Below are positions 39,236-63,906 of a DNA stretch of 64,000 nucleotides, piece after piece. Source of the stretch: Umbilicaria muhlenbergii (lineage: Eukaryota > Ascomycota > Lecanoromycetes > Umbilicariales > Umbilicariaceae). Below the pieces are notes generated by a model. That model made no database searches. It was not told the origin of the DNA and saw only the letters and a list, made by a program, of their open reading frames with translations. A program made the translations under genes and the position numbers. The stretch covers positions 1,084,364 to 1,148,363 of the forward strand of contig KK106984.1 of assembly GCA_000611775.1 (NCBI GenBank). The letters run 5' to 3'. The stretch's first letter is position 1. Every line of letters starts with the position of its first letter.

Positions 39236-41096
39236 CAGACTGTTTCAACAATAATATTTTGGTGATATCGTTTGAAAAGTGCTCACGACGTCATCGTCTC
39301 AAGCGATACATCATGAAGCTAAGTCGTATTCGAACAGCAGGCTGGCCATTAACATTTCTCAGATGAGGAGGCCCTTTGATGTTCAAAACACACTGCAGAG
39401 AAAGTTTGAGGGCCAAGTTGCGTTCTTGATTTCACTAAAAAAACGTTGCCTTTTATCATCGATTTGCTGCTGAGGATCCCCCGAAATTCTCTACTCTGAG
39501 TACTTCAAAACTGTCACTTGTTTCGATAGTACGCCTGACCAGTCAGGTAAGGTGAAGTGCTCCAGTATCTTCGCTGCAGGTGCAAAAGCTCGACACGAGA
39601 TAGAGGAATCCTGAAGCATGTCTGTCAAGCGAACCGTCCAAATAAGTGGCAGTCTTCTGATGAAGCACCCCTCGATGTTCTGTTTGGCGAAGAGGGCTAA
39701 ATGCACCGATGCTGAAGGTTGAAGTCGTTGAGCTCTGTACTACACTCCTGCCTTTACTGTTGGTTATATTTCGTTATCGTTTTGCTGCTGAGGACCCCGC
39801 GGATTTCTCTGCTCCGAATGTGCCAGTAGTCTTGATGGTTCACCTGCTGTGTGTCTGCTGGTCGCTGAGGACCCCCAGACGAGACACAAGGCTTGTACTC
39901 GTACGAGTGTCCATTTAACTAGATAGGGTTACAGAGGACTTTCAAGGGCTTCACTCCGAATTCAATGCTGTGGGGGAATGCCAGCTTTCTCATCCGGAAG
40001 GCCAGCCTTTTGATGCGTGAAGTGTTTCTGAAAGGCCCATCGATGCTCATAGCACAAGTCAAGCTGTATCCTATAGCACCTTCAGTTTCAGGTCGGTTCT
40101 ATCGCCACGCCTGAGGCAGAAACGGCGTCACCACTCTGGCCTGTGTGAATCATTGAAGCTTTCGAGGCAAAGCATGGTTTCTCTGGTTGCCGCTTGCCGA
40201 AGCAGCGGAGATGTCAGGGTCTTTTGATATTAGGCCCTCTCATTGGTCCGTTCAAGTAACCGCCTTCAATGCTCGGGCCGGATCTCACGCTGGCATGACT
40301 AATCAGGATCCAGTTCAACAGTCTTGGTCGACATTATTGTTCTCCATTAGGCCATATCTTATCAGACTGGTGCTCGTGCTCCCATGAGGGAAGAGTGGGA
40401 AGGCGTAGAAGAGTAGAAGAGTAGAAGAGTCAAAGAGTAGTGCCGAAAGAGCCTTGCACATCGAAGGATGCTGGCTGACCGGTCGAAGATCCTTGCCTAG
40501 CTGAACCTAGCTGGAGCACACCTTGAATGACGTACGCCCGGCCAGGCTGAGAAGGCCCCTTTCCGCCAAGCCAGTCGGAGTCGGGCGTCCCAGCTTGCGA
40601 GCAGTCTTGGTCTCAGGCTCGCCAGGCTCCAGCTTAAAACACATGAGCGAAGGAGGCACCGGACACCCTTTGTCGATTACCTTGGTAACCTGCAATCTTT
40701 AGCATACGTCCTCAGTCGCAACGAGGCTCCGCATTCCGTCGACAACCAGCATAAAGTCGTTGCGCCACGCTTTTCTGCCAGTCGCACATTTGATTCGCGC
40801 CACTGCGAGACAGCTACTACCAGTCGATCCATCACTGTACTCACAGCTGGGCACGAAAAACTCTCGAACGAGCACTTCAGTCAGATCGCATTCGGATCAT
40901 AAAGCAAACACTCCATTACCGACTCTATCACCCGAAATCACTCGTGGCGACAAGCATTAATCATCCGTCGAAATTCATTGTACTTCGACCCCTCACATAA
41001 GGTTCACACGCAACTCAAGCTTTCCCGAAGCCAATTCCACTTGATCTTGACCGACATTCGCTTGGCCCCATCCATCCCAGGCCGAACAGCGCGATC
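39236..41096. promoter_or_regulatory. Long divergent intergenic region with diverged duplications
   Basis: Sits between the carrier (-) and the DUF3824 gene (+), so both promoters should be here. It contains two related blocks (from about 39458 and 39774) sharing TTTGCTGCTGAGGA.CCC and TTCTCT.CTC, a third GCTGAGGACCCCCAG near 39864, and a short AGAAGAGTAG tandem repeat at about 40394-40440. No open frame with protein-like content. It may be an old repeat or a pseudogene whose parent I cannot name. Confidence 0.5.
40394..40440. repeat. Short AGAAGAGTAG tandem repeat
   Basis: GAAGAGTAGAAGAGTAGAAG followed by AGTCAAAGAGTAG: a 10-bp unit about four times, the last copies imperfect. Confidence 0.8.
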
Positions 41097-42974
41097 ATGT
41101 CGTACGAATACGACCAGCAGGAGTCGCATCGGCGACACAAGTCGGAGCGTTCTCGACGGGACCGACCGGTCTACGAAGAAGAGGAAATCATCGAGACCCG
41201 CAACGGACCTCCGCGAGGTGGTCGGACGATGGATTTGGCCCGTCGACCTCGCGACGATAGCGACTCCATCGAAGAAATCCAACGTGAATTCCCGCCTGGA
41301 GAAGGTGCATACGTGCAGCGACGTACCACTGTGCGAGACAAGTACGCTTCTGCTCCACGGCGGGCTCGCTCCATCGACCGTGGCTATGAAGAGGATTATT
41401 ATGGGGTAGATGCGCGACGGTCTGATCCCTCTGTCGGAGGGGGAAGACGCCGCGGTGGACGGGACAGTGATCGAAGACGTAGGGATTCATTCAATCAGAG
41501 ATGTTCGCATTTTGGCTAACATGATCCAGACAACCGCCGGAGCAAATACGAGTCCGAGTCCGAGTCATCCGACTTTGACAGTCCGCCTCCTCGCGAACGT
41601 CGTAAGTCTCTAGGTGAACAGGCGCTTGCGGCTCTTGGTCTCGGAGGATTGGCAGGTGCTGCGGCTGGCGGACGCGACCGATCTGAGAGCCGAAGTCGTG
41701 CCGGGCGTAGTGGCCGTGGCAGTAGTCGACGTCGTCACCGGTCCTCGTCTTACGACTCCCGCTCTCGTGAACGTGAACCTGATACGCAGGCGAAGATCCA
41801 GCAAGCTGTCAAAGCAGCTCTCATTGCCGGCGCAACTGAAGCGTTTCGAAGCCGCAAGGAGCCTGGCGGATGGACCGGAGACAAAGGAAAGCGTGTTCTG
41901 ACAGCAGCTATCGGTGCCGGAGGTATTGATGGCCTTGTCAGCGGTAATGACCCAGATAAGAAAGGAGGTCGTCACACTATCGAAGCTGTCATTGGAGGCC
42001 TGGCGGGTAACAGACTGATCAACGGCCCTAGAGACAATGAGCGCTCTAGGTCTCGAGGAGGAGGGGACAGGAGAAAGAGTGGTGGCTTCGGTCTCAAGGA
42101 CCTTGCCGCTGGTGGAATAGCAGCGGCGGGTGCAAAGGCGTTGCTTGACCGCAGCCGCTCCAAATCTAGAGGCCGCAGATCTTACAGCAGTTCCGGTTCC
42201 TCGTACGACAGTAGCCCTCCTCGCAAAAGAAGCTCAAGTGTGGGCGCTTTCGCCAAAAGGGGACTCGGCAAGGGTATGGCCATGGTTGGCTTGGGCAGTG
42301 GCGGTAATGATCAGTCAAACTATCGGGATTCGAGGAATAGTGACCGCGATGGAGGGTATCGTGATCAACAAATACGTCCACGTGGAGGAGGGGCCGAGGA
42401 GAAGAGTGGTACTAGCAGCAGCTCGGAAAGCGACCTGGACATATCGTCGTCTGAAGAGGAGCGTCGACACAAGAAGATTCGTGGAAAGGAATACCTCACC
42501 GCAGGTCTGGCAACCGTGGCGACAATCCACGCCGCTCATTCAGTTTATTCGTCCTACGAGAACAGGCAAAAGCGCCGCAAGGAGGTGTTGCAGGGGAAAA
42601 TGTCTCCGGAAGAGGCGAGAAAAAAGAAATCCAAAGCCACCCTGCAGGATGCTGCAAGCGTTGGTATCGCAGCTCTGGGTATCAAGAGTGCGATAGGTGA
42701 GTGGAAGGAAATGAAAGAGACGCGGAACGAATGCCATGAGTTTGAGTCCAAGGCAGAGAAGAGAAAGGAGAGGAGGCTCCAGAGGATGAGAGGAGGCGAC
42801 AAGGCCGGTAATGGGAACTATCGCTATTCAGAGCCGAATCTCAACCAAGCCTACCAGAACGGTGGATATCAGAATGGCTACGGTAGCGGCCCACGGTACA
42901 ATGATGGCAATCCTTATAACAGTGGTGCCCTCCCTCCGCCACCCATGGGGCCTCCTCCATCACGATATCACTAG
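41097..42974 (+). CDS. DUF3824-type, Ser/Arg-rich fungal protein
   Basis: Exons 41097-41478 and 41530-42974 (51-nt intron, GTAGGG donor, GCTAAC branch, CAG acceptor), 608 residues. The N-terminal third is RS/RD/Asp-rich (RRHKSERSRRDR, RRPRDDSDSIEE). The middle has Gly/Ala-rich hydrophobic blocks separated by Arg stretches: LGLGGLAGAAAGG, KAALIAGATEAFRSRKEPG, RVLTAAIGAGGIDGL, IEAVIGGLAGNRLINGPR; this series is the mark of the DUF3824 family of filamentous ascomycetes. Further C-terminal are KEYLTAGLATVATIHAAHSVYSSYE and LQDAASVGIAALGIKSAI, then a charged helix and a Tyr/Asn/Gly/Pro-rich tail ending PPPPMGPPPSRYH. The repeated Gly/Ala helices could associate with membranes (glycine-zipper-like). 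Function unknown. Confidence 0.88.
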
Positions 42975-45535: not shown

Positions 45536-46581
45536 AGATTGGGAAACTGGAGACTATTTTCTTGCATTCAAATGGTGTTCTTTATACCCACTAGACTGAT
45601 ATCCCTTGGGGTTTTTTTTGGTCTGTTTTCTACTGGGCGCTCATCGGTAATATTGGTGGGAGGGGGTAAGCCTTGGCTCTTCCTCAACCTCGCGGGGGCC
45701 CAGCTTAATGAGGTAATATTGGGGGGCAAGTTTGGGCTCTTTCTTCAATATGACGAGGGCCCAGCTTGATAAGTCGGTTTGTATATTAGATTGATATCAC
45801 GATACCAATGAAGCCAAATCATTCATGTTCTAGAGACTGGATCCGTGAAATACGCGCTGCCGTATGTGACTGCTGAGTCGGCAGATCTTCGCGCAGAGGA
45901 GGCTCCCTCAAGCTAGTGATATCACTGACATGTCAATGTCATCATATCCGGAGAGCCCCCTTCTTCTGCAGCCATCTGATACCTACCGCTTATTTCGACG
46001 GTGCGCCTGCTGAGCACCGTTTGGTTGGCGTGTCGCGTTTCAACTTTGCAGGATTTTTGGTCGAATGCGAAAGGGCTGATGGGTTGAAAATACGAGTGTG
46101 CCTAAGCTTGTGCTGTGCTGCGGCGTCCTCCTGCGCCCTGGTGCGAGGCTGTGGGGGTGTGCGGTGGTTGGATTGGCTTGATGATGGTGGTTGGGGGCGG
46201 GAAGGGGGGGCTATGGTCGCCTCATGGGTTTGCGTAGCCTTGCTGCTGGTATCGTTTGGGAGCCTGGTTGCGAGCGGTTGTTTGCGAATGCTGCTTGACT
46301 GTACTCTTGGCACTTTACTACCCTCGACGGTTTCTGAGAAGTTTCAAATTACAGCTCCGACCTGCGAGTGCGACGAAGATTGAAGAGCCGAAGGCGTTTT
46401 TGTAGGGTTCCAGATACCACGTTGGATCTTGGGAGAGGTGTCGACAGCTGAGATATAAATTACCAACGACTTTGGGTACGTTCTCTCAATATGTTACCGC
46501 TAGCGGTTGTGACTTGCCCTGCAATTGCTAATTCATATTCGTAGCTTTTCTCTCGTTCATCTTCCAAGACCTGTGAAAGCT
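45536..46581. other. Intergenic spacer with a 66-bp tandem duplication
   Basis: 3' flank of the PIN-like gene and 5' flank of the ankyrin gene. It contains the imperfect tandem duplication 45646-45770. The long open stretch 45916-46383 begins with GTG and has no recognisable content, so I do not call it. The region just before 46582 is probably promoter/5' UTR. Confidence 0.45.
45646..45770. repeat. Imperfect tandem duplication, about 66 bp
   Basis: Copy 1 from 45646 and copy 2 from 45712 each run GGTAATATTGG, a G-run, AAG, TTGGGCTCTT or TTGGCTCTTC, then GGGCCCAGCTT. Copy 2 is a few bases shorter. Confidence 0.85.
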
Positions 46582-49500
46582 ATGTCAAAACAGTCAAAAA
46601 CCCGCCGAAGTCCCACTTTTGAAGCTCCAGAGGGTTCTCGCGGTACCGGATATACCTCCATAGGGGTCTCACTGCCCTATTTCGAAGGCTCATCAGCAAC
46701 TGCTCGAAGGCCTAAGAATATCGCAGGACCTAAAGTGTCTGAAGAGTTATCAATGAACACAATCGAATCCAGGGCGTTGATTAGCGCAATTGACTCCGGC
46801 GATAGGGCGGCTGTGCTGGGACTGCTAAGAGTAGGAGCTAATGTGAATACAACCGAAGGTCCTCTTTCGATACCACCACTCATTCGAGCGATACGCTTAG
46901 GGAATGAGGCAATTGTGCAGCTGCTACTGGACTGGGGCGCTAAAGTCACTAGAGACCATGGCTGGAATGAGACAGCACTCCATGTTGCGGCTGGAAAGGG
47001 TCATACTGAGGTGGTGAGGATGCTACTGCAGAGTGGGGCCGACGTCAATGCGATCGATAATAATGGGGAAATGCCACTTCATTTCGCAGCTGGGCAAGGT
47101 CATCATGAGACGGTGAAAATGTTGCTGTTAGAAGGAGCTGATCTTAGTGCGCAAAATGTTCGTGGAGAAACAGCACTTCATTTGGCAGCTGAGCAAGATC
47201 ACTATGTGACAGTGAGGCTGCTACTGCGCAATGCCGCAGACATAACAGCTCAGGATATACAAGGCAGAACACCACTTCATTTGGCAGCTGAGCAAGGTCA
47301 CTCTGAGGCAGTGCGGCTACTACTGCAGAACTCCGCCAATATAATAGCTCAGGATATACAAGGCAGAACACCCCTTCATTTGGCATTTGAGCAAGATCAC
47401 TATGAGATAGTGCAGCTGCTACTTAAAAATGGAGCCGATGTTAACGGAAAAGACAGAGATGGACGGACACTACTACAAAAAGCGGTTTCAAGCATGAACA
47501 AGACAATGGTAAAAGTGCTGCAGGAAGCGGGTGCTGACATTGCATCAAAGAGTGCCTTTGAGAAGAGTTTTCTACGCAAAGTAGCCTTGGAAAGCTCCAA
47601 TCTAGGTACAGAGGCGCGGTTAAGTGATGTCTGTCACGATTATGAAGACATTCTCAACCCAGGAAAGTACTTCAAGGAGCTCAACGACCTAGAAAGAAGG
47701 GTGGCACTTCATTCATCACTCAAATACTTTGAGCAGGGTCTCTACATTATAGAGAAAAGTCATCACAGCCTCGATAGCCTAAGCTCTGATTTCGGCCTGT
47801 GGGCAATGAGGGGAGCGCTTTGGGAGGGCAACAATCAAGATTTCCAAGCATGGAGCGCATGCTATAAATTCATCATGCGTAGCTTGGTTGAAAGCTACTC
47901 AGTTGTATTGCAAGTTCTTGAAAATCTGGACTTACTTGGGGAATCTGGATTTTGTGGGTCCTTTTTCACCATTCTTGTTGCGACCAGAAGCCGTCCGGAA
48001 GTTGCGCAGGTCTCACGAATCGAGCGTTCTACAGTGGATGTGATTGCGGTCTCCATGCGGGAGAGCATATTCGCTCTTGCAGCACTCTACTCGAGACTAA
48101 AAGTTGACGGACAATACTACTCTCAGCTACCGCAAGATGTATCATCTACAGTAGAGGTCCCCAGACGTCACTGTACAGAGTTACTAGCCGGTATGGACCT
48201 TGTTGTTCAGGGGCGGTTAGACGAGGGATCCAGTCTTAATATGATGCCCGAGCTAACAGATATTCGGCTCGCCACATTGATTATGAATCTCGGGCTTGTC
48301 ATGTATTCTGGATCACATGGTTCGGATATTGAGAAATACCTTAGAACGCATGTCATACCGGGAAACCAATCTCCTACAATGGAAGGAGTCGGAACATCAC
48401 CGATCTTGACGCCTAGAGAGTCGCTCGACGAAGTCAACCCATCTAGATTGCAAGTACTTAACGAAGCTGCTACTTATGGATTTCAATGTACAATGAAGCG
48501 TCTGGCGTGCTTGGAAGAATTCATTGGGGGCTCAGTCTGGGTCTTTGAGCATCTACAAACTGGACCGATCGCTACTGTGTCAGACAGACGGCTGTTTGTC
48601 TCCACCTCAATAGAGGACTTCAGCGATATGTGGGGACCAGTCTGGGCTGTTCCGAGTAAGGAACGCAACATGATCAAGCATTACAATGTGCCCAAAGGAA
48701 TGATCCGCAGGGTATCATTAAATACCTTTCCAGACCCAAAAATCGACGACTGCGAGATTCCTTGCCATTGGAATAGCTGGGCAGAACTCTCAGAATACAG
48801 TGAGGGTTTACATTTTACTTTCGACGACCTCCTAATCAAACCGTCAGACAAACTCCTTATTGGTCTCCCGTTCCAAAATAACGTAACGTGTCAGTTCACG
48901 CTGAGGGAGATAGAGCGTACAAGAGCCGGCCGCATGGTTCCTGCTGGTACGTTTTCAGAGGCCTGGTTTACAGACACTTATCAAATAGGGGCAAATGCTG
49001 GCTTTCGGGGCGTTGGTGTGTCAACACAGCGTACAAGAAAGAAACGTCCAAGTAAAACACATAAAGAAGCCATATGGGACAATATAAAGAACTCACCGCA
49101 GAGCTTCCATCCCGGGATCTTCAACCTTTTGTTAGGTCTAGAAGTTAGTCACTGCACCGGGAACGCACGAAGAATCAAGATGAAAGATCTCTTCCGTTTG
49201 GACCCTGTCAAAAGCTATCTGAAAGAAGTACAGCCTGAATGGTATAACAGTGCACTCGGCGGACAGTTCTCAGAAGCTATCAGCAGTTCCGATGCGGGTA
49301 TGCTCCGCTGTTTTTGGGACGGTCTATCTGCTGAAAAGAAGCTCGAAGTTGTGGCGATCGTTCAGGTCGTGATAGACCCGCTGCAATTCACCGGAGTGAG
49401 GGAAGACGGGACCTTTGGAGTTGGCTATTTGAGTTCCGGGAGGGATGCGCAGATTATGCTGCTAAACCGGCATCTCAATGACTGGGCTGGCGTCTTAAAG

Positions 49501-49929
49501 GACTCGGAGACCGTGACCACCTACGCAATCTTGAACAAAGTCTGCCTTGAATGCGCCCTTCGAGATTACGACACCCACATTTGTCGGTCCAAGGGCGGCA
49601 GAGCAGGCTTTACAGTTCTCGAGACGCAAATCACCGTTCCCTATGGGATCTCCGATCAAGAACAAAGCCGTTTCTTCCGCCTTGGGGAGCAAGGTCGTTT
49701 GGATATCATTAGCAAGAAAGATGACGGCGTCCTTGTGGCGAAATGGGAGCAAGCGGACATGCGAGAAGTGTTGAACAGAGTCAAGAAGCTCGTACAGCCT
49801 CAGAAAGAGATCCTATATGATCAGGAAGTAGTCAAAGATGCCGAGATGGGTGACCAGATCTTCCAGGTCTACATACGATCGCAGCATCGCAGTAACTTTG
49901 GCTGGGGAGAGGCCGTCTATGGCTGGTAG
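46582..49929 (+). CDS. Large ankyrin-repeat protein with uncharacterised fungal C-terminal domain
   Basis: A single uninterrupted exon, 1,115 residues. ATG 46582 (MSKQSKTRRSP) is the first in-frame ATG; the open frame extends upstream only with non-ATG codons. After a disordered 65-residue head come about eight ankyrin repeats (residues about 68-330), with consensus parts such as GRTPLHLAAEQGHSEAVRLL and ADVNAIDNNGEMPLHFAA. Repeats 5-7 are nearly identical in DNA with a 99-bp period. The remaining 780 residues are a conserved-looking region with FSDMWGPVWAV, EIPCHWNSW, LLLGLEVSHCTGNARRI and a closing region AGFTVLETQITVPYG. I recall this tail from hypothetical ankyrin proteins of filamentous ascomycetes. 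No NACHT, kinase, F-box or membrane segment is seen. Probably a scaffold or recognition protein; no function claimed. Confidence 0.87.
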   Translation: MSKQSKTRRSPTFEAPEGSRGTGYTSIGVSLPYFEGSSATARRPKNIAGPKVSEELSMNTIESRALISAIDSGDRAAVLGLLRVGANVNTTEGPLSIPPLIRAIRLGNEAIVQLLLDWGAKVTRDHGWNETALHVAAGKGHTEVVRMLLQSGADVNAIDNNGEMPLHFAAGQGHHETVKMLLLEGADLSAQNVRGETALHLAAEQDHYVTVRLLLRNAADITAQDIQGRTPLHLAAEQGHSEAVRLLLQNSANIIAQDIQGRTPLHLAFEQDHYEIVQLLLKNGADVNGKDRDGRTLLQKAVSSMNKTMVKVLQEAGADIASKSAFEKSFLRKVALESSNLGTEARLSDVCHDYEDILNPGKYFKELNDLERRVALHSSLKYFEQGLYIIEKSHHSLDSLSSDFGLWAMRGALWEGNNQDFQAWSACYKFIMRSLVESYSVVLQVLENLDLLGESGFCGSFFTILVATRSRPEVAQVSRIERSTVDVIAVSMRESIFALAALYSRLKVDGQYYSQLPQDVSSTVEVPRRHCTELLAGMDLVVQGRLDEGSSLNMMPELTDIRLATLIMNLGLVMYSGSHGSDIEKYLRTHVIPGNQSPTMEGVGTSPILTPRESLDEVNPSRLQVLNEAATYGFQCTMKRLACLEEFIGGSVWVFEHLQTGPIATVSDRRLFVSTSIEDFSDMWGPVWAVPSKERNMIKHYNVPKGMIRRVSLNTFPDPKIDDCEIPCHWNSWAELSEYSEGLHFTFDDLLIKPSDKLLIGLPFQNNVTCQFTLREIERTRAGRMVPAGTFSEAWFTDTYQIGANAGFRGVGVSTQRTRKKRPSKTHKEAIWDNIKNSPQSFHPGIFNLLLGLEVSHCTGNARRIKMKDLFRLDPVKSYLKEVQPEWYNSALGGQFSEAISSSDAGMLRCFWDGLSAEKKLEVVAIVQVVIDPLQFTGVREDGTFGVGYLSSGRDAQIMLLNRHLNDWAGVLKDSETVTTYAILNKVCLECALRDYDTHICRSKGGRAGFTVLETQITVPYGISDQEQSRFFRLGEQGRLDIISKKDDGVLVAKWEQADMREVLNRVKKLVQPQKEILYDQEVVKDAEMGDQIFQVYIRSQHRSNFGWGEAVYGW
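47150..47445 (+). repeat. 99-bp ankyrin-coding tandem repeat, nearly identical copies
   Basis: GCTCAGGATATACAAGGCAG followed by AACACC.CTTCATTTGGCA occurs at about 47246 and again 99 bp later at about 47345. The preceding repeat at about 47150 shares CTTCATTTGGCAGCTGAGCA. The copies are closer to one another than to the outer repeats, a sign of recent duplication or gene conversion. Confidence 0.85.
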
Positions 49930-51047: not shown

Positions 51048-54000
51048 ATGGCAGCGACGTCTGTCATGTCGTACTGCGCCGATCGCCCCGACAGCGAATT
51101 TCTCGAACGAAAGATCCCGCCATTGAGGACTGGTTTGGATGACGCTGGTGGATGCGCGGCGGACTATATCTTAACGAGGCGGTGTGATTGCGGCTGCATG
51201 GGGCGGGGTCCATGCAAAGCTTCTCCGCCAACCTCGACCTGGGTAGGACCATAGATCCCTTACCACCCTCGAATCTCTGGCTTTGGGGGTGTCTCGGGAA
51301 GGATTCGAGTTACCCAACAGCCGCTAGCTCTGCACAGACGATCTAACTTCTACAGCATTCACCTAACCTTGATCATCAGCCCTCGAGCAAATTCACGTTG
51401 AGCGTAGAGCTTCTTGAGGTCGCCGAGAATACACCTTCACCCTATGGTTCGCCGCCGCCATCCTACCACGAGGCCATCACCGATGCGCCGCCCGATTACA
51501 CGTTCACCGATTGCTTAGCGCACTGCCCCACTATCACCCTTGGCGTTCTTTCCCCGGCATCGAAAGGTGGAGACAGTCAGTCAAACGACCCGCTACCTCC
51601 CTTCGGCCTCATGTCGCCACCAGCTATCAACTTTGACGATACTTCTAACGTCCAATCTCACGGTGCCAAGAAAAAGAAGCAGGCCCAGAAGAAAGCCAAC
51701 CAAGCCAAGTGGGCTGACTCGGATGACGAGGGGAACAAGGAAGACGGCGAAGGTGAGAACGGTGGGGGCAGTGGAGGCAGCAATCACGGTGACGGTGGGG
51801 CAGGAGATGATGGTGATGATTGGGACACGGGAAAGAAGAAAAAGGGCAAGAAGGGCAAGCAAAATGTAGACGAAGAGGAGGAGAAGAAAAAGAAGGAAGA
51901 GGAAGAGCAGAGGAAGAAAGACGAAGAGGAGGCTGCAAATGGTTCTAATCCTCTCTCATGGGCGGATGGTGGAGATGCGAATCCAGATGATGAATGGGGA
52001 GGTTTTACGGCCGCGGGGAAGAAGGGCAAGAAGGGAAAGAAGGGAAAGGTATAAATACACAATCATGGGCCTTTCCCTCTCGCTAATAAAGATTTACAGG
52101 CCGACCCTGTTCCTCCTGCGCCTCCACCACCTCCTGACCCTCCCACGACCAACATGTTCGATGACATCGACCTTCTTGACGATCCAGCTCCCCAGATTGA
52201 TCTCAGCTTCGGTGGTACAGACAACAAAGATAAAGGCTTCGGATTTGGTGGCTGGGGAAGTAGTTGGAACACCGGCAACAAATGGGATTTCAACGGGGCA
52301 GATGCAGCAGGAGCTGATGTGGCTGGTGAAAAGGCGGTCAAGGATACCAAGGCTGCTACTGGAGACGCTGGCGAATCCAACGTGTGGTCCTTTGGGGGCA
52401 ACAAGAAAAACAAGAAAAAGACAACGACGTCCGGGTTTGACTTTAGTGACTTTGGACTGGACGAAATGAAAGAAGAGGAGCCGCCTATGGAGGAAAGTAA
52501 ACCCGCTGAAGAGGATGACTGGGGTGGCTTCATGTCTGTGGGTAAAAAGGATAAGAAGAAGAGCAAGAAAGGCACTGGCGAAGAAGCAATCAAAGCCCTA
52601 GAGCCAGCCGTTGTCGATGTACCTTTATCAGACCCACTAGCTACCGGGGATAGTAGTTGGGGTGGCTGGGGAACAGCTTCCTCCAAAAAAGATGCCAAGA
52701 AAGGAAAGAAAGGTGTCACTGAAGTCGATCCACCAGTGAATGACGTACCTCCACCGCCACCTGCCGCACCAGTAGAAGTCAGTGGAGATGATGGATGGGG
52801 CACCTTTGGATCTAAAAAGGATAAGAAGAAGGGCAAAAAGGGTGCCATCAAAGAGCCTGCCGTTACTGAAGAACCAGCAGTCGTCACCGTGCCAGACCCA
52901 GAGCCTATGGCTGAAGAAGGTTGGGGTGCCTTTTCGACCAAAAAGGACAAGAAGAAGGGCAAGAAGGGCGCTGCAGAGGAAATTGCAAAGCAGGAAGAGC
53001 CCGCTGTCGTAGTTCCGGGGCCAGAGCCAGAGCCTATGGTTGAAGAAGGTTGGGGTGCCTTTTCGACCAAGAAGGACAAGAAGAAGGGTAAGAAGGGCGC
53101 TGCAGAGGAAATTGCGAAACCAGAAGAGCCCGTTGTCGCTGTAGTTCCAGAGCCAGAGCCTGTCGCGGACGAAATTTGGGGTAGCTTTAGCACAAAGAAG
53201 GACAAGAAAAAAGGTAAGAAGGGTGCATTTGAAGAGCCCCCGGCACCGGAAGAGCAGCCCACTGTTGTGGCTGTCTCAGATCCTCCACCAGCGGATGAGG
53301 GATGGGGCACTTTTGGAACCAAGAAAGACAAGAAGAAGGGTAAGAAGGGTGCATTTGAAGAGCCTCCGCCACCGGAAGAGCAGCCCGCTGCTGTGGCTGT
53401 CCCAGAGCCTCCACCGGCAGATGAGGGATGGGGCACCTTTGGAACCAAGAAAGACAAAAAAAAAGGTAAAAAGGGTGCATTCGAGGAGCCTCCGCCACCA
53501 GAAGAGCAGCCCGCTGTTGTGGCCGTCCTGGAGCCTCCACCAGCAGATGAGGGATGGGGTACTTTCGGAACTAAGAAAGACAAGAAGAAGGGTAAGAAGG
53601 GTGCCTTTGAAGAGCCTTCGCCACCGGAAGAGCCTCCACCAGATGTGGCTGTCCCAGAGCCTTCACAGGCAGATGAGGCATGGGGTACTTTTGGCGCCAA
53701 GAAGGACAAGAAGAAGGGCAAGAAGGGTGCTGTAGAGGAGCCTATGCATGTAGAAGAGTCCGCCGTTGTTGCTGTCCCGGCGACTGAGCCTGCAGCAGAA
53801 GAGGTGTGGGGCACGTTCGGGGCGAAGAAGGACAAGAAGAAGGGGAAGAAAAGCGCTTTTGAAGATTTTCCACCAGCTGATGAATACGCCGAAAGCGTTG
53901 TTCCCGAGGCGGAGCCAGCAGCCGAAGACACCTGGGGAACATGGGGTACTGCAGCGAAGAAGGACAAGAAAGGGAAGAAGAACGCTATTACGGAGGCCAA

Positions 54001-57000
54001 GGAGGAACCAATAGCCGTTGTGGAGTCTGCGCCTACCGCAGAAGCCGCCGACACCGTGGCGGACGATGATTGGACTAGTTGGGCTGGGGCCGGGAAGAAG
54101 AAGGATAAGAAGAGCAGGAAAGGATCCGTGGTCAGTACGAAGGCTGACGAAGCATTGCCACCGCCACCCCCGCCTCCGCCGCCAGCTGAAATCCTAGATG
54201 TTCAAGATACCTTCAAAACTGATGACTGGGACACATGGGGTACCTCCAAGAAGGACAAGGATAAGAAGGGCAAGAAGGGCAAAGCTGCAGAGCCTGGCCC
54301 TCCAATAGCGGCAGTCCCAGAGCCGATGATTGAGACGAAGGCAGGTCCTGAAGACGAGTGGGGTACTTGGGGGCTATCTAGCAAAGACAAGAAGAAGAAA
54401 GAGAAGGCGGGTAATAAGGCGGCCGTTGAAGTGGTTGACGACTTCAACTTTGAAGCTCCGATGGCAACTACGTTTCCTGACTCAGTCCCACCTGTAGAGG
54501 AAGACACATGGGGTACGTGGGGGACCTCAAAGAAGGACAAAAAAAATGGTGGCAAGAAGGTCAAGGAATTTGAAGTACCGCCTCCAGCCCCGTCGCCACC
54601 TATAATGCCTGAACTGGACGACCCTGAAGAAGACGAATGGGGATCATTTGCACCGGTGAAGCCGAAAGGCAAGAAAGATACTAAAGCGGACACTCTGGCC
54701 GGAAAGATTTCAAAATCAAAGACTACCAAAGCCGAAGAGTCTAAAGTGGGCAAGAAGAGTCCCAAAGACAAGGATGAAGATCTTATTGACATGGTCTCCG
54801 AATCGCCGGAAGAAAAAGTTTCGAGTGAAAGCAAGAAGGACAGCAAGAAAGACGAAACGCCAGCGAAAGCCGCCAAGAGCTTTTGGGGTGGCTTTGGAAA
54901 CACAGCGGCGACGAAAACTAAGGTAGGCAAGGACAAGGATGACGCTAAAGCTAAGAAAGTCGAAGATGATGACGCCGCCGGGGAAGAATACGATGATGAT
55001 GTTGGGGAAGAAGATGAAAATGCTATCGTCGAAATCATAGAGGAGCCACCGAAGAAGAGCCCTAAGGACGCAAAAGGCAAGGCCGGTAGCAAGCTTACGA
55101 GAACCAACAGTAAAGAGAGCGACAAGGGCGGCAAGTCCGACGATAAGAAAAAGAAGGGCGATACTAGCGCGCTGATCGATATCGTGGAGGAAGCAGCGAC
55201 AGAGAGTAACGGAAACACGTGGAAAAGCATGGACGGCGAAGACAAGCACGAGGCCAAAGAAGGCAAGAAGGAGGAAAAGAAGGACGACGCTTGGAGCTTC
55301 TGGGGGTCGAAGAAGACAGCTGGCAAGAAGGCAGATGAGTCCAAGAAGGAAATTACCAAACAAGATTCGGCCAATCAGAAGGCCACGCTAGCCAAGGTCT
55401 CGAATGCGCCAGAAGTGACGCTCGCTGACGAAGCAGCGCAACCTTCGAAAGCAACAATGTCGACGATAAAAGCGAGTGATTCAAAGTCCAAGACGACCGG
55501 CAAACTCTCTGTCGCGGAGAAAGTGAAACAGTTGGAGAAGGAGAAAGAAAAGAAGTTGGAGGCAATCGCGCCGCCACCCGCGCCCGAGCCAAAACCCCTG
55601 CCAAAAGCCGACTCGCCTCCGGATAAAGCGAGCGCATCGACAAAATCAAAGGGCGCAACTGCAACTAAATCTGCATCATCAAAGAAGAAAGATCTGTCGC
55701 CTCCTGCAGATCGAAGCAAAACTTCAAAGGACTCTGTACCAGGCAGCTTTCCTTCCGAAGGCGCGGACGACGACATCGTAGACGTAGTTGATCTTCCCCC
55801 TGTTGATAACAAAATAAGTAAGAAGAGTGCCAAATCCAAGAAAGAGCCAACTATGGCGGACATGCTTATGGAAGACCCGGCGCTACCGGCACCACCGGCA
55901 CCGCCAACACCTCCGCCCGAGCCAGTCTCGAGCAAGCCTGTGAAGAAGGAACGCGCGCGTGTCGTAAGAGATGAAGGTGCCGGTTCTTGGGGCTTCTGGG
56001 GTTCAGCGCCGAAGAAAGATGTCAAGAAGGAACGCAGATCAAAAGACGACGCGGACGTAGCTCCGCCACCGACAAAGGAGAAAGTCCCGGCACCAGCTCT
56101 GACAAGGTCGAAGTCGACAAAGATCCCCAAGGAGAAGGAGCGAGAAGTCGAGAAGTCTTCAGGCTCTGACAAGGAAAAGAAAGCAGTTCCCAGACCCGCC
56201 AAAGCAAGAGGCATGGGCTTTGCTGGTATGTTCGGAGCTTCGCCCGCCCCTTCAAGGACGAAGTCTCGTGGGCGGCCCGGCACCGCTGTACCTAAGAGTA
56301 CTTCTCGAAGAGAATCTGTGGATGTCGGTGCAGTGGGCATCCCGTCCCCGCCACCTGATGATCTACCCGAGATGAACTCCAAAGCTGCAAAGATCATGGG
56401 TATGGGATCTGGAAAACTTGGTCGGAAGGAGTCCACTCGTGGAAAGCAGAAAGCTTCCGGTAAGACATTCACCACTTTGCCGACCATTTCTCAGAGACTT
56501 TCTAATCGTCCGGACGCAGTCGTACCTGATCCGTATGCAATTGACGATGATGATATGGTACTCGTGAACGAATTAGAAGACCCGGTCATCAACGCCCTTC
56601 CGCCTCCTAAGGATTCGCGCAAAGCTGTCGGCTTGGACAAAAGCTCGAAGAGCAAGTCGAAGAGAGAGGTAGGCGCTGACCCCAGTCCTCTGCCTGAACT
56701 CGTCATGGACGCCCAAGCTCTGCCAGACAGGAGTCGGCCAAACTGGGAACCTGACTTCGAACCGTTCGTGAAGGCTAATGGCAAGACGAAATACAAGCAG
56801 ACCAATTCCAGGTCGGACCCTACGGATGATATCGTCATGGTGGAAGCAGGTCCTTCAACCGATGGTCCCGATGTTGTGACTGGCCCAGATGACCTTAACT
56901 TTGTGGAGAAGCCACGAGAACCGCCTCGGTTGAAGAGATCAGCGACGACAACTGCAAAGAACCCTCCTAAATTGATGGGACTTTTCGGGCCCTTCCGCAA

Positions 57001-58261
57001 CAGCCGTCGTACTTCCGAGGCATATGCTCTACCAAAAAGTAAAGGAGCTTATGGCGACGACGACGGTAATGAGCGCCGAAAGCGTACTGTTTCCGGTGGT
57101 GGCGACGCTGCGAAGCGTCTTCGGCGCGACAAACGAGATGTTCGACGAGCTGATACCCGAGACTTCGATGGAGATGGCTTCAACACTGATGCCGCACCGA
57201 ACGGTGGTGCATCGACTGAAGCCGAAGATGCTGAAGCCCGTCGTGAGGAGCGGAGAGCTAAGCGAGCTCTAAGAGATCAAGAGGCTAAAGAAGCAAGAGA
57301 AGCAGATCTGAGGGCGGCAGAAGATCGAAGGGCAAAACGTCGAAAAGCGGAACAGGCTCAAGTTGAAGCCGACAGGGCGAAACGCAGAGACGCAAGAGCG
57401 CGGAAAGAGAAGGATGAAGACGAACGAGAGGCCAGACGACAAGCCGATAAGCGGGCGAGGCGTGCGGCGAGAGATGAAATGAATGCCAAAATTGAAGCGT
57501 CCAGAGATGGCGAGACTAGGGGTCTGGATAGACGGAGTAGACGTCGGGATGATGATCCGGTCGGCGAATCATCAGCACGGCCTCACAGATCCGACCGTCG
57601 CCGCTCCTACGTGGACAAGCCTACTTCCGTCCGCTCCCCAGATGAGGAGACCGAGCGGCGTCACCGCCGCACGCACCGTACTCCAACCAAAGAGACAAGC
57701 CGCCGCAAATCGGCGCCACCGGTGGAGGACTATTTCGACCCACGCAATGGCGCGGATGAACTAAATCCCGAGCCTCTACCTGCACAAAACCCACCCTACA
57801 TGCCGCACGACAATGGGACTAACGACCATACTTCGTCTTGGGTGAACTCCCAGATCATCGAACCCCCGCCTCCACCACCTATCGAACCTAGTGTTATCGA
57901 ACCCCTACCCGTCATTAATGACGATGATGGCGGAGCGAACGAGGGGGACTCTGTTGTCGAAGAAACGGCGCGGCGCGCTCCGCGGCGCTCCTCACACCGG
58001 CAGTCTAGATACGCGGATATGGGTCCCTATGAAGTTGATGAGAGGAGGCGGAGGCGGGAGTCGAGGAGGATTGACAGGGAGGCGGTCAGGAGCAGTGAGG
58101 GCAGTGGTGACGGAGATCGGTATGCGAGGAGGAAGAGCGAGTATAGCGGTGGGTATACCGAGAAGGCAGGAGGACTGAGAACTTTCGATGGACGGGGGGC
58201 GAATGGGGCGGGTGCGAAGAGGGCGAGCTGGTTCAAGAAAATTACGAATTTGCAGATGTGA
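51048..58261 (+). CDS. Giant disordered protein with more than 20 WGxF-KKDKKKGKKG repeats
   Basis: Proposed exons 51048-51242, 51380-52048, 52100-58261 (introns 137 and 51 nt), giving 2,341 residues; junctions are in frame, and the first exon is the least certain. N-terminal part: YGSPPPSYHEAITDAPPDYT (PPxY-like motifs), then Lys/Glu and Gly/Asp-rich runs. Residues about 330-1590 hold 21-22 copies of a motif with Trp, Gly/Ser, an aromatic residue and a Lys block (WGTFGTKKDKKKGKKG), separated by acidic Pro/Val/Glu linkers (EEP..PEEQPAVVAVPEP). Later come Lys/Ser-rich disorder, an Arg/Ala/Glu-rich predicted long helix (about residues 1990-2170), RSRRDD/RRRS segments, a VEDYFDPRNGA box, NDHTSSWVNSQ and the tail RASWFKKITNLQM. 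The C-terminal boxes are conserved in filamentous ascomycetes as I recall. No enzyme domain. The layout suits a scaffold or phase-separating protein; function unknown. Confidence 0.85.
52770..53960 (+). repeat. 126-bp-period coding minisatellite (42-residue unit)
   Basis: The Trp codon of successive units lies at 52796, 52922, 53051, 53177, 53303, 53429, 53555, 53681, 53807 and 53933: every step is 126 bp except one of 129. Each unit encodes W-G-x-F, a Lys block and an acidic Pro-rich linker. The middle four units (53177-53681) are closest to each other. Confidence 0.95.
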
Positions 58262-58871: not shown

Positions 58872-60445
58872 ATGAGGGCGGCAAGAGCATCTATACGTCC
58901 TCGTGTGTGTCTCCAATGGCCCCGACAATGGGCAATCCCGAAGAGCTGGGCTAGCATAAGGCGCCCTTTCCATGGTTCTGCACGGCGAGCAGTCATCAAA
59001 CCATTTATCCTTGCTGATATTGGCGAAGGTAGGATACTTGTTTGCAGAAAACATTCGGACAATGACTGACCACTGCTGTAGGCATCAAGGAAGTGCAAAT
59101 TATACAGTGGTTTGTCGAGCCAGAAGCACGCGTCGAACAATTCGACAAGCTATGCGAAGTACAATCGGACAAGGCAGCGACGGAGGTGTGCCAATTGTGC
59201 CACGTCCACAAAAACAGGACGCTGAAGCGTGTTCTAGATCACTTCCCGGTTCGATGGTGTGATCAAGAAACTATACTATGAAGCCGAGGATATGGCACAG
59301 GTTGGCAGGGTAGGCCTATATACTTGAGAATGGGAATGTCTCCCGCTGAGAAACGCTAGCCACTGTGTGATATCGACATCCAAAGCGAAATCTCGCCGGA
59401 AGACGAGGCTCTTACCACACCCCCAGCCGAGCAAGCTAGCTCTTCATCGTCAGCACAGCAGCCACAAATAGCTGCCGAAAAGGATGAAGGCGAAGGGGGA
59501 GTTACCGAAGGAAAAGCTGGACCTCCTATGAAACCGGGAAAGCACTCATCGTTGGCAACGCCGGCTGTTCGAGGGCTCTTGAAAGAGCTAGACGTCAACA
59601 TCGCAGACATAACCGGCACAGGCAAAGACGGGAGGGTTCTGAAGGAAGACGTCCACAAGTTCGCCGCAGCAAGGGACGCGCCTTCCCCATCTAAATCTCA
59701 AACGCCTTCTGTTCGACCCACCCACAAGGACGACGAAACCCAACACCACCACCCCACCCCCCTAACCCCGAACCAGCACGCCATGTTCAAAACCATGACC
59801 CGCTCCCTAACAATCCCACACTTCCTCTACGCCGACGAAATAAACATGACCCCCCTCCACCAACTCCGCCACCGCCTCCTCCCCCACCACAAACTCTCCT
59901 CCCTCCCCTTCATCATCAAAGCCGTCTCCCTCGCCCTCTCCGACCACCCCCTCCTCAACGCCCGCCTCGACCTCCCCGCCAACCCCTCCGATCCCCCTAG
60001 GCTACTGTTCCGCCAAAACCACAACATCGGCGTCGCCATGGATACGCCCCACGGCTTGCTCGTCCCGAATATCAAACACGTCGCCTCCAAATCCATCCTC
60101 GAGATCGCGGCCGAGCTGGGCCGGCTACACGGGCTGGCGCGGGCGGGGAAATTCTCGCCCTCTGACTTAACGGGCGGGACATTTACGGTTAGTAATATCG
60201 GGAGTATTGGGGGGACGTATGTGGCGCCTGTGATTGTGGAGAGCGAGGTGGCGATTTTGGGGATCGGGAGGGCGAGAGTGGTGCCGAGGTTTGGAGAAGG
60301 GGGGGAGGTGGTCAGGCAGGAGGTGGGGGCTTTTAGCTGGAGTGCGGATCATCGGGTTGTCGATGGAGCTAGTATGGCGAGGATGGCGGAGAGGGTGAGG
60401 GGGTTGGTGGAGGAGCCCGCGGGGATGGTCGTGAGGTTGAGATGA
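58872..60445 (+). CDS. DBT: Branched-chain 2-oxoacid dehydrogenase E2 (dihydrolipoyl transacylase), mitochondrial
   Basis: Exons 58872-59028, 59082-59185, 59238-59309, 59360-60445, introns 53, 52 and 50 nt, giving 472 residues. An Arg-rich mitochondrial presequence (MRAARASIRPRVCLQW) is followed by the lipoyl domain (PFILADIGEG ... EVQSDKAATEITSRFDGVIKK), with the lipoylated Lys in SDKA. The E3/E1-binding domain follows (SLATPAVRGLLKELDVNI.. TGKDGRVLKEDV), then the catalytic domain with FTVSNIGSIGG and the active-site DHRVVDG box near the end. QWFVEP, FDKLCEVQSDKA and RFDGVIKKLYYE fit the branched-chain enzyme better than pyruvate or 2-oxoglutarate E2. It transfers acyl groups from valine, leucine and isoleucine breakdown to CoA in the mitochondrial matrix. 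Codon 3 choice is unusually C-rich in 59750-60000. Confidence 0.95.
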
Positions 60446-61474: not shown

Positions 61475-63906
61475 TCAAAACCCCCCCTCCTCCTCCCCAT
61501 CCAACACCCTCCTCGCCCTCTCCAGCCTCGCCCTCCAAACCCCCGCCGCGTGTACCCCGCCTTCGCTCCCCTCCGCCGTATACAACTTGGCGCAGAGAGT
61601 GCGGAAACTCTCCATCAGCGCTTCGACGAGGACTTTGTCGGAGCTGCTGTATTGGAGAGCGGGTGCGAGGGAGCCGTCGGGGAGGGGGAGGGGGGCGNNN
61701 NNNNNNNNNNNNNNNNNNNNNNNNNNNNNNNGGGGAGGGGGGGTTGGTGGTGGCGGAGGGACGAGGGGAAGGGAGGGCGGGGGGGTTGGAGGATGAGGTG
61801 GAGGTGGAGGTGCTAAGGGGGGTTGGTGCAGGGTTGGTTGTTGGGGGCTGCGTGCTCGTGCTCTGAAGACTGGGGTCGGGGGTGGCTTTGGTGGCTTTGT
61901 CGACTCCTCTGGCCGCTCGACTCGAGGATTTGGGCTTCTCGATGTAGGTGTCGGATTGCCAGGCTCCGGCCATGGGAGGGCGTCGGATCCAGGCGTCTTC
62001 GTCGGGTTCGCCATCGGATTGTGTCCCTTCGGTAGCGGTGGCGAAAGAACTTAGCGTCGACACGGATTCGACGCTGTTCTGCCTCGAGTGTGCTTTGTGC
62101 CAAGTTGCAGGCGCTCGGGTACCATTGCTTTGCTCCTTGGAAGATGGTGCGCCCTTGGCTGTCGTGTCGGAGCTTTCCAAGACGGGTTCGTTGGGCCTGG
62201 TGGTCTCGGCCGAGTCTGTTGAGCTGGAACTTCCTCTTCGTTGACCTCGTTTTTTACTGAAGCTGCCCATGCCGCTGTGGAGGAAGAAGTTCTGGTAATC
62301 GAAAGCATCTGGGCGATCCTCATGGCGTTCGCTAATAAGTTCCGCGGAGGGCTCGTAATATTCCTCGTCTCCAACTATCTCGTCCGGTTTACTATCGTTG
62401 ATGTTCTCCATCTCGTCTTCCTTCGGGTATGGATCCTCCTCTTGTCTCAGGTCTTCGAGATTCATGTCTCTCACCTTGCCCTGATCCTTGTCTAGCGCTT
62501 CATCCTGGTCGGGCCTCGGCTGAACTCCACCTTTTGGTTCTGGCTGTGATGTATTGTCAAGGTGCTCTTGCCGAGAATATCTTCCGAGACCACTTTGCAG
62601 CTTTGTCCGGTCTGCTTGGTTTTCCTCAGCATCATCCAAAGGCTTTCCTACACCGTTCCAGCCATGTTCGGCATTGACGTCGAAGCCTGCCATATCCGAG
62701 CCACCACTTCCTGTATACCATTGCTCTGCAGCTGTAAAAGGACTCGGGTTCCTTAAGCTTTGTAGACTCCGTCTTCGCAGATGATCCTCACGCGCTTGCT
62801 GTTTCAGACTCGAGATCTTTCCCCTCAAATCTTGCATCTGATCCCGCAGTTCGCGCATCTGCACTGTAGAACGTGATCTGGTAAGGCCCGTCTGTACGGG
62901 AAACTTGGAGTCAAAGTCCGAAGCTGCCTGGTCAGGGTACTGAGGCTCCTCGTTGAGCAATCTGCCATTGGTTCGAGAGTGCATCTCATTAGCGTATTGG
63001 AACGACGACGGGGCTGGTCCGTCTTCATTGAGGGGTTGCAGAGAGACGTGTGGGCGATTATTATAGCTACGGCTGTGGACAAGGCCCTGGCCACGACTGC
63101 TTGCCGATACGAGATGCTCCCCTTTATCTTGCTGGTCCAAGTAATTGTGGCTCGTGCCAACGGAGGCTGTTTCACCGGTCACCCCCTCGCCTAACATGCC
63201 GTATGATGTGTTTCCCGGCAGTGTGTGCAACGAAGACGGCACTGAGGGTTCGCTAGAGACTCTTGTATGTCCTTGGCCACCAATCGATGGTACGAAAGGC
63301 GAATTGAACTGGCGGTGCTTAGAGGTCGTAAGGGTTCCTGCCTGACGATCCCCATTCGTTGTTGGGGGTGAGTAGTTTGACGCTTGATCAAGGCTACGAC
63401 TGGCAATGGATGGCATTGAGGTTGAAGGGGCGAGGAAGAGCGAGTGGCGTGCACGATTGAGATTGCCCTCCATGTTCTACAACAAACAATCAGAGAGTGG
63501 GTTCCAAAGTACAGCAGTATGGTCGTCTCACCGTCAGTCTTCTTTTGGCATCGGCAAGTATACGCTCTGCCCGTTTAGTCAAAGCAGCGTGTGACAATGG
63601 GCCCTCCTCTTCCTCCGGGAAGGGACTTCCGACGGGACTCGGAAAGTCATCGACCGTTGCTGAGCCCAAACCCTCCCAATGCGGGATCTCGAAGTCGTCA
63701 AGTGATGCATCACTTCTTCTCTTGAAATCGTAGTCATCCTGCAACGTCGGCGAGGACGCCAAAGGGAGAGAGGGTGGAGGTTGCGATTCGAAGTCGGAGG
63801 ATTGAGTAGAATTGCGCGAGGGTTCGTAGGACGGCAAGATCATATCAGGATTGGTTAGTGACGGCGACGGCGGGTCAACCGCGGGCTGGTTAGGAAGGAC
63901 GTGCAT
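61475..63906 (-). CDS. Conserved fungal coiled-coil protein crossing an assembly gap, function unknown
   Basis: Exon 1 63906-63532 (125 codons) and exon 2 from 63476 down to 61475; intron 55 nt (GTGAGA donor, TTGTAG acceptor). Exon 1 has FKRRSDASLDDFEIPHWEGL and GPLSHAALTKRAERILADAKRRL. Exon 2 starts NMEGNLNRARHSLFLAPS and contains a coiled coil RSTVQMRELRDQMQDLRGK .. LKQQAREDHLRRRSLQSLR followed by NPSPFTAAEQWY; these boxes are conserved in filamentous ascomycetes as I recall. A 34-N gap at 61698-61731 breaks the frame. To the left of it (the C-terminal side) the sensible frame is the one reading SDKVLVEALMESFRTLCAKLY ... WRARLERARRVLDGEEEGGF and stopping at 61475, not the Gly/Arg-rich frame running on to 61383. 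A few residues at the start may lie elsewhere. Probably cytoplasmic or cell-cycle related, but no function claimed. Confidence 0.78.
61698..61731. other. Assembly gap (34 Ns)
   Basis: A run of 34 N in a G-rich (C-rich on the coding strand) low-complexity stretch coding Pro/Ser. The length is probably nominal: the coding frames on the two sides do not agree across it. Confidence 0.97.

Follow-up and report, generated by a model that had tools for sequence, protein, structure and literature searches.

The tail of FAM21, a member of the WASH complex, carries 21 LFa motifs that serve retromer and other partners (PMC7093645). In vesicle coats, the mu-homology domain of delta-COP binds ligands with W-x(1-6)-[W/F] in acidic surroundings (PMC8015235), a motif termed WxxF in PMC6737914, and WxxF binds the sandwich domain of the AP-2 alpha-ear (PMC3794858). 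Among giant fungal proteins, the leashins (5,936-10,821 residues in the species named; PMC2690989) contain the repeats LPVDEDLDLLPALPES and PEEVELPASP and have a transmembrane region near the C-terminus (PMC5345055), and the disordered regions of the septal-pore proteins SPP and SPA are biased to Arg and His and depleted of Lys and Gly (PMC10023807). Here we analyse a gene at positions 51048-58261 of a 64,000-nucleotide stretch (the window) of contig KK106984.1 from the ascomycete Umbilicaria muhlenbergii, which by our model encodes a giant protein with a repeated Trp/Lys module. We propose, with somewhat less than even confidence, that this protein is a receptor-binding scaffold that carries many copies of one motif.

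The three-exon model translates to exactly 2,341 residues, as given in a preliminary description made from the DNA letters alone. The same description had counted 21-22 aromatic-plus-Lys "stickers", and we find 21 W-x-x-[F/W] sites with Phe (13 sites) or Trp (8 sites) at position +3 from the first Trp. Gly occupies +1 in 18 of them, an acidic residue lies within -4 to -1 in 19, and all 21 have at least four Lys or Arg residues in the 20 positions from +4 to +23. Successive stickers are 42-232 residues apart; in the regular array the order of each unit is an acidic pair, W-G-x-F, KKDKKKGKKG and a spacer of Glu, Pro and Val. These counts greatly exceed those in 1000 composition-preserving shuffles: 13 WGxF against a shuffle mean of 0.08 (maximum 2), 21 W-[GSTDA]-x-[FW] against 0.70 (maximum 4), and 20 W-x-x-[F/W] closely trailed by KK against 0.23. 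The association between Trp and Lys was tested without circularity, since Lys clusters (at least 6 Lys in 10 residues) were located blind to Trp. Eighteen of the 19 clusters begin no more than 8 residues after a Trp, and these Trps have Phe or Trp at +3 in 17 cases and Gly in the other. Charge alternates along residues 421-1160 with a best period of 43.5 residues (power 10.3; none of 500 shuffles goes above 3.9). Clathrin-box and FFAT-like patterns have no match in the protein and the PASK polyphosphate motif fits no window of it. An Atg8-interacting motif was rejected as an explanation of the stickers because Ile, Leu or Val never occurs at +3 of the 18 Trps that precede a Lys cluster; the pattern has four matches in the protein, including one at residue 1137 that overlaps a sticker through its Phe and one at residue 2331, at the C-terminus.

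The array itself provides a record of which residues have been held constant. In nine aligned units (Trp at residues 521-858), the Trp, Gly, Phe and KKDKKKGKK are invariant and their codons are variable. Over all pairs of the nine units, the proportions of non-synonymous (pN) and synonymous (pS) differences in the sticker (-4 to +16) are 0.087 and 0.749, respectively; for the spacer (+17 to +37), all pairs of the six gapless units give pN 0.337 and pS 0.482. Because two-fold Lys codons push the Nei-Gojobori pS too high, we make no claim about dN/dS in the sticker and use a tally of codons between adjacent units as the safer test. Between neighbours, sticker codons are the same in 63 cases, synonymous in 34 and non-synonymous in 8, versus 44, 18 and 43 in the spacer (Fisher p=3e-7); the tally comes from 5 adjacent pairs among the six of nine aligned units with gapless 42-residue spacing, and neighbours are partly non-independent. 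The excess of silent change in the sticker relative to the spacer indicates that the motif is maintained as protein sequence and that the spacer is loosely held. We read this as purifying selection on the Trp/Lys stickers, with diverging spacers between them. The outer units are more variable: over 18 units, compared at positions -3 to +3 only, pN is 0.288 and pS 0.685. These data also bear on a neutral explanation, in which slippage has expanded a low-complexity array without any function at the level of the motif. The tandem period of 126-129 nucleotides and the simple Lys-rich codons are what such growth would leave, and one adjacent pair of units (residues 563/606) is indeed a recent duplicate, with a sticker pS of 0.16. 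However, stickers change silently while their protein sequence is static and spacers do not behave in this way, and sticker pS is 0.47-0.79 in the other seven of eight adjacent pairs, so that the array is mostly old rather than a freshly homogenised minisatellite. Neutral expansion, already disfavoured on these grounds, is very improbable.

The Trp/Lys module was found in one gene of the 34.8-Mb, 7-contig genome. A 71-residue query of two units, in a search that scores best candidates only, gave 14 matches at E up to 10, of which 13 lie within this gene and the last is a weak match on contig 1 (E 1.26). A DNA pattern for the core, with up to 2 mismatches, occurs at 9 sites in the genome, all within this gene, and its reversed control at 0. 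Homology to a known enzyme or structural family would have undermined the view of this protein as a novel scaffold, and none was found. No Pfam family scores over the cut-off for the exon 3 frame from 52154, exon 2 from 51398 or five smaller pieces. We set aside the matches to Cwf_Cwc_15 (E 0.0038), Presenilin, DDHD (exon 2) and PPE-PPW (E 0.013, middle region), all of which are sub-threshold and fall in low-complexity sequence, and likewise the single PDB match of the exon 3 frame, eIF5 (E 0.01), which also lies in low-complexity sequence. The tail boxes, unit strings and motif name were found in no open-licence paper searched, and we recognised no protein of like kind among the entries listed by broader searches of the open-licence literature, which is not proof of absence.

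Several lines of evidence support, without proving, the view that the giant protein is almost wholly disordered. In the charge-hydropathy comparison its mean hydropathy (0.371) is below the boundary of 0.415, as expected of a disordered protein. When a 68-residue segment of the array was modelled with AlphaFold2 using 10 sister segments as the alignment, the mean predicted local distance difference test (pLDDT) score was 56 and no secondary structure was predicted, a result in which the shallow alignment could conceal a fold. The last 450 residues, modelled without an alignment, gave block pLDDT values of 86-97 over model residues 111-200 and 42-65 elsewhere. The high-scoring block falls within a charged helix predicted at residues 1995-2093, in line with the Arg-rich helix of the preliminary description, in a C-terminal portion (residues 1900-2341) that is 18.1% Arg. 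We rejected a coiled coil for this helix, as none of the heptad registers is hydrophobic. Its charge pairs at i to i+3/i+4 do not exceed those of shuffles (18 versus 16.0; 27% of shuffles reach 18), and its designation as a single charged helix therefore comes from AlphaFold2 and composition.

To infer what the stickers might bind, we compared them with motifs of described function. The closest in architecture is the FAM21 tail, which also has about 20 copies of a short aromatic/acidic motif on one chain and several partners (PMC7093645), but the LFa motif L-F-[D/E]3-10-L-F is not found in the giant protein, which has a single LF in 2,341 residues. Among the peptide codes that we found, the closest are two read by coat appendages. 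The first is that of the delta-COP ligands (the Dsl1 lasso, Gcs1/ArfGAP1, Cex1 and insect FAM114A), in which Trp is followed 1-6 residues later by Trp or Phe beside acidic residues. All 21 stickers match the W-x(1-6)-[W/F] core, with two residues between the aromatics. Likewise, the W-x-x-F core of ligands of the AP-2 alpha-ear and the AP-1 and GGA ears (NECAP WxxF, Eps15) is present at 13 of the 21 stickers, and a looser ear pattern of acidic-[FW]-G-x-hydrophobic matches at 16 places in the protein. Because the sticker is a two-aromatic motif of fixed spacing that resembles coat-appendage codes, set in a FAM21-like architecture, we favour a multivalent receptor-gathering scaffold. The constant W-x-x-[F/W] spacing is no less compatible with receptor binding than with self-association. 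About half of the confidence that we place in a receptor-binding scaffold goes to coat or adaptor appendages, the leading receptor candidates by analogy. The most specific form of the proposal, a new family of giant fungal scaffolds in which some 20 motifs hold delta-COP or AP/GGA-ear complexes under the regulation of SUMO- and Nedd4-type sites, is rather unlikely. If true, the protein would serve vesicle traffic in hyphae as a FAM21-like hub that evolved from a new motif.

In the mechanism that we propose, avidity would be the job of the protein: about 20 weak motifs per chain would engage many copies of one folded receptor. Each unit of about 42 residues would present one short linear motif, composed of an acidic patch, W-x-x-[F/W] and the Lys cluster, with the spacer as a loose acidic/Pro/Val linker. 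The sticker would bind the receptor, most likely the delta-COP mu-homology domain or an AP/GGA ear, and the Lys cluster may add contacts to membrane or coat. Elsewhere on the chain, two PPxY motifs could dock a ligase of the Nedd4/Rsp5 type, sites resembling SUMO-interacting motifs (SIM-like) could permit SUMO-dependent recruitment, and a second docking end may be provided by the C-terminal helix together with the Arg-rich tail.

A number of observations weigh against this proposal. Sticker flanks are acidic upstream only and strongly basic downstream, whereas the published delta-COP ligands sit within an acidic stretch; in addition, the giant protein has 21 sites, each trailed by Lys. The main misfit with delta-COP ligands is the Lys cluster that directly follows the two aromatics; it is also the likeliest of the features to be new. 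Basic residues also trail the core in the comparison with AP/GGA ear ligands, where the likeness is one of motif alone. The genome does have two Alpha_adaptinC2 ear loci over the cut-off, in keeping with the proposal. Nearly all eukaryotes possess ears and coatomer, however, and finding them is weak evidence that does not discriminate between readings. The constancy of the motif is known from the array of one genome, where it may not outlive the local tandem duplications. The sticker pattern would also serve self-association, and 13 NLS-like (nuclear localization signal) matches to KKKxK would fit a nuclear protein as well.

Self-association is the main rival. In this explanation, which we consider unlikely, the protein is a homotypic condensate former of the FG-nucleoporin or sticker-and-spacer kind, in which Trp/Phe and acid/Lys blocks bind one another, giving a meshwork located at septa or at the tips of hyphae. 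The stickers are regular, the 43.5-residue charge alternation is of the kind seen in block polyampholytes, and six units read WGTFG and so contain the FG dipeptide. The genome also encodes a HEX1-type Woronin-body protein (best PDB match Woronin body major protein hexA, E 2e-103), from which we infer septal pores and which marks the host as very probably a filamentous ascomycete. However, the raw composition of residues 200-1160 (961 residues) is 16.4% Lys, 11.0% Gly, 0.2% Arg (2 residues), 0.2% His and 0.1% Tyr (1 residue). With Arg and Tyr nearly absent, the usual cation-pi chemistry of condensates is absent from the repeats, and Lys/Glu coacervation or FG-like cohesion may be the routes of self-association left. 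The SPA/SPP septal-pore proteins are, like the giant protein, largely disordered fungal proteins, but the bias reported for their disordered regions (PMC10023807) runs the opposite way to that of these Lys/Gly-rich, Arg/His-poor repeats, a comparison of our raw percentages with normalised differences in that source. Generic stickers, moreover, would presumably not need an exact W-x-x-[F/W] spacing. Self-assembly of this protein, if it occurs, would differ from that of known septal-pore proteins in relying on repeats with hardly any Arg or Tyr.

A second structural alternative is an elastic tether of the leashin or titin-PEVK kind, in which the repeats act as a spring and the two ends hold two cell structures. 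The giant protein has a long repetitive middle rich in Pro, Glu and Lys between dissimilar ends. The leashins (LAH), giant repetitive Pezizomycotina proteins with special ends, have a similar plan of conserved ends around a repetitive, acidic, PELS-rich middle (PMC2690989). According to the same source, the central regions of leashins are unconserved in primary sequence, whereas the stickers here are strongly constrained within the array. The giant protein is also far shorter than the leashins and has no transmembrane-like segment: the best 19-residue Kyte-Doolittle mean is 0.96, at residue 107, and the four best windows all lie outside the tail. By size and transmembrane region, the features compared, it appears not to be a leashin-type tether, and we regard the elastic tether as improbable. 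The preliminary description had suggested a condensate or tethering scaffold in hyphae. A disordered multivalent scaffold is well supported by the lack of a family match, the lack of a unit fold, the constrained stickers and the diverging spacers. The more specific role of a hyphal condensate or tether would go beyond this support: the repeats nearly lack Arg and Tyr and have a bias opposite to that of SPP/SPA, and the protein is not leashin-like in the features compared.

The receptor-binding scaffold that we favour includes regulatory sites, and these could instead be the working parts. If so, the protein would be a SUMO/ubiquitin hub built on the SIM-like and PPxY motifs, with the Trp/Lys array as a secondary binding surface. 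We count 12 SIM-like sites, defined as acidic-flanked hydrophobic tetrads, in the whole protein. The mean is 0.65 (maximum 5) in 1000 global shuffles and 0.78 in local shuffles, and no shuffle among the 1000 of either kind reaches 12; the pattern is our own simplification of the SIM consensus. Both of the N-terminal PPxY-like motifs of the preliminary description, PPSY and PPDY, are present, 11 residues apart, and PPxY is a candidate docking site for a WW-domain or Nedd4-type ligase. On the other hand, 7 of the 12 SIM-like sites look weak, lying in Val/Ala-rich spacers or near the N-terminus, and the spacer that bears weak sites drifts. The SIM-like and PPxY motifs together suggest regulated recruitment, but from these motifs a hub of this kind is quite improbable as the main function.

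A final alternative is an Argonaute hook of the GW182 or SPT5L kind, in which repeated WG motifs gather Argonautes. SPT5L has many WG pairs in a disordered chain. The giant protein, itself largely disordered, resembles such hooks: WG is present in 18 of the 21 stickers, which are more than 10 residues apart, as are Ago-binding sites (PMC9262622). At three places in the genome a Piwi match exceeds the cut-off, and a fourth match is below it; two of the three contain internal stop codons, with introns and decay not told apart. The best of them, L012 (contig 4:1985866-1986720), is a QDE-2-like Argonaute whose PIWI surface is without the four metazoan tryptophan-pocket residues. In ALG-1, P733, F802, K803 and E838 mediate GW182 binding (PMC5147811), and L012 aligns K, A, L and A at the equivalent positions, with none of the four kept. 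The pocket-3 proline P700 is kept in L012, but C691 of AGO2 pocket 3 (PMC9262622) aligns to Val. Subtracting a constant 143 places the ALG-1 residues at AGO2 590, 659, 660 and 695, in agreement with the AGO2 numbering. The alignment was to an argonaute-2 chain, and in it the P590 position is occupied by Lys in N. crassa QDE-2 too. With one of six inspected residues kept (P700), the comparison weakens the hook; it covers the best of the three Piwi places over the cut-off, and fungal pockets could differ. The giant protein further departs from GW182/SPT5L-type hooks in its Lys clusters and in the second aromatic at +3, a residue that WG hooks do not include, and three of the stickers are without Gly. 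We therefore consider an Argonaute hook highly unlikely.

Giant disordered proteins of fungi are often skipped by annotation, as domain matches are absent. In this case the evolutionary record of the repeats themselves separates the working residues (W-x-x-[F/W] and the Lys cluster) from filler, which makes a peptide-binding experiment clear. If the receptor is a vesicle coat, hyphae would have in this protein a new means of bringing coats together.

The coordinates of the gene and of the features of its product are collected in Table 1. The exon joins are inferred from the sequence. Around the start ATG, position -3 is A and position +4 is G. Within the scanned limits, 8 GT-AG pairs keep the exon 1-2 frame open, so that the exact 5' intron is plausible rather than fixed. 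Intron 2 links the first motif unit, at the end of exon 2, to the remaining repeats in phase 0, and its retention would lead to an immediate stop (TAA 52052-52054).

Table 1. Modelled exons and introns of the giant-protein gene and features of its product, in window positions and residues (aa).
Feature	Window positions	Strand	Residues and remarks
Exon 1	51048-51242	+	aa 1-65; open frame; Cys-containing N-terminus CDCGCMGRGPC
Intron 1	51243-51379	+	donor 51243 one of several workable choices
Exon 2	51380-52048	+	aa 66-288; two PPxY motifs and first W-x-x-F + Lys unit
Intron 2	52049-52099	+	51 nucleotides; GT...CTAAT branch-like site...ACAG
Exon 3	52100-58261	+	aa 289-2341; within stop-to-stop open frame 52055-58261 (2,068 codons)
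N-terminus			CDCGC motif, then two PPxY motifs at aa 91 and aa 102
PPSY and PPDY	51455-51499	+	aa 91-94 and aa 102-105; 11 residues apart; pattern scan
Trp/Lys repeat region			aa 176-1160
Span of the 21 W-x-x-[F/W] stickers	51995-55999	+	aa 271-1588
Regular tandem array of 42-43 aa	52796-53875	+	Trp at aa 521-858; Tandem Repeats Finder periods 126, 129 and 252 nucleotides
Lys/Ser-rich middle			aa 1161-1900; three further stickers and SIM-like motifs
Five best-looking SIM-like motifs	55025-56842	+	IVEII aa 1264, LIDIV aa 1313, IVDVV aa 1514, MVLV aa 1774, IVMV aa 1866
Predicted single charged helix	57218-57514	+	aa 1995-2093, about 99 residues; Arg-rich; AlphaFold2
Arg-rich C-terminal tail	57728-58258 (span)	+	aa 2094-2341 for the whole tail, with window positions counted from the first tail box; terminal ASWFKKITNLQM
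Tail box DYFDPRNG	57728-57751	+	
Tail box SSWVNSQ	57833-57853	+	

The other features of the window are of various kinds. Directly downstream on the same strand, 59360-60442 encodes a 2-oxoacid dehydrogenase acyltransferase (E2) with an E3-binding domain, and a run of 34 N at 61698-61731, possibly an assembly gap, lies within a Pro-rich frame of the minus strand. A single open frame of 1,138 residues at 46513-49926 has six stretches of ankyrin repeats; no Pfam family convincingly matches its long C-terminal region. Two long frames at 41001-42971 encode an Arg/Ser-rich protein that matches no Pfam family even at E 1; it is low-complexity and Arg-rich, as is the tail of the giant protein. The PUF/CPL-domain protein at 35594-37363 (CPL E 4e-36) is probably of the ribosome-biogenesis PUF6 kind. 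Positions 1-34000 form an AT-rich block, within which 9863-13468 contains retroelement-like scraps of open frames, one resembling a reverse transcriptase by eye. The observed/expected ratio in this block is 0.13 (1-20 kb) and 0.31 (22-34 kb) for CpG and 0.56 and 0.80, respectively, for CpC, with CA/TG raised and TpA/ApT not raised. CpA-directed change is the usual pattern of repeat-induced point mutation; the C-to-T decay in this block is aimed instead at CpG (and CpC).

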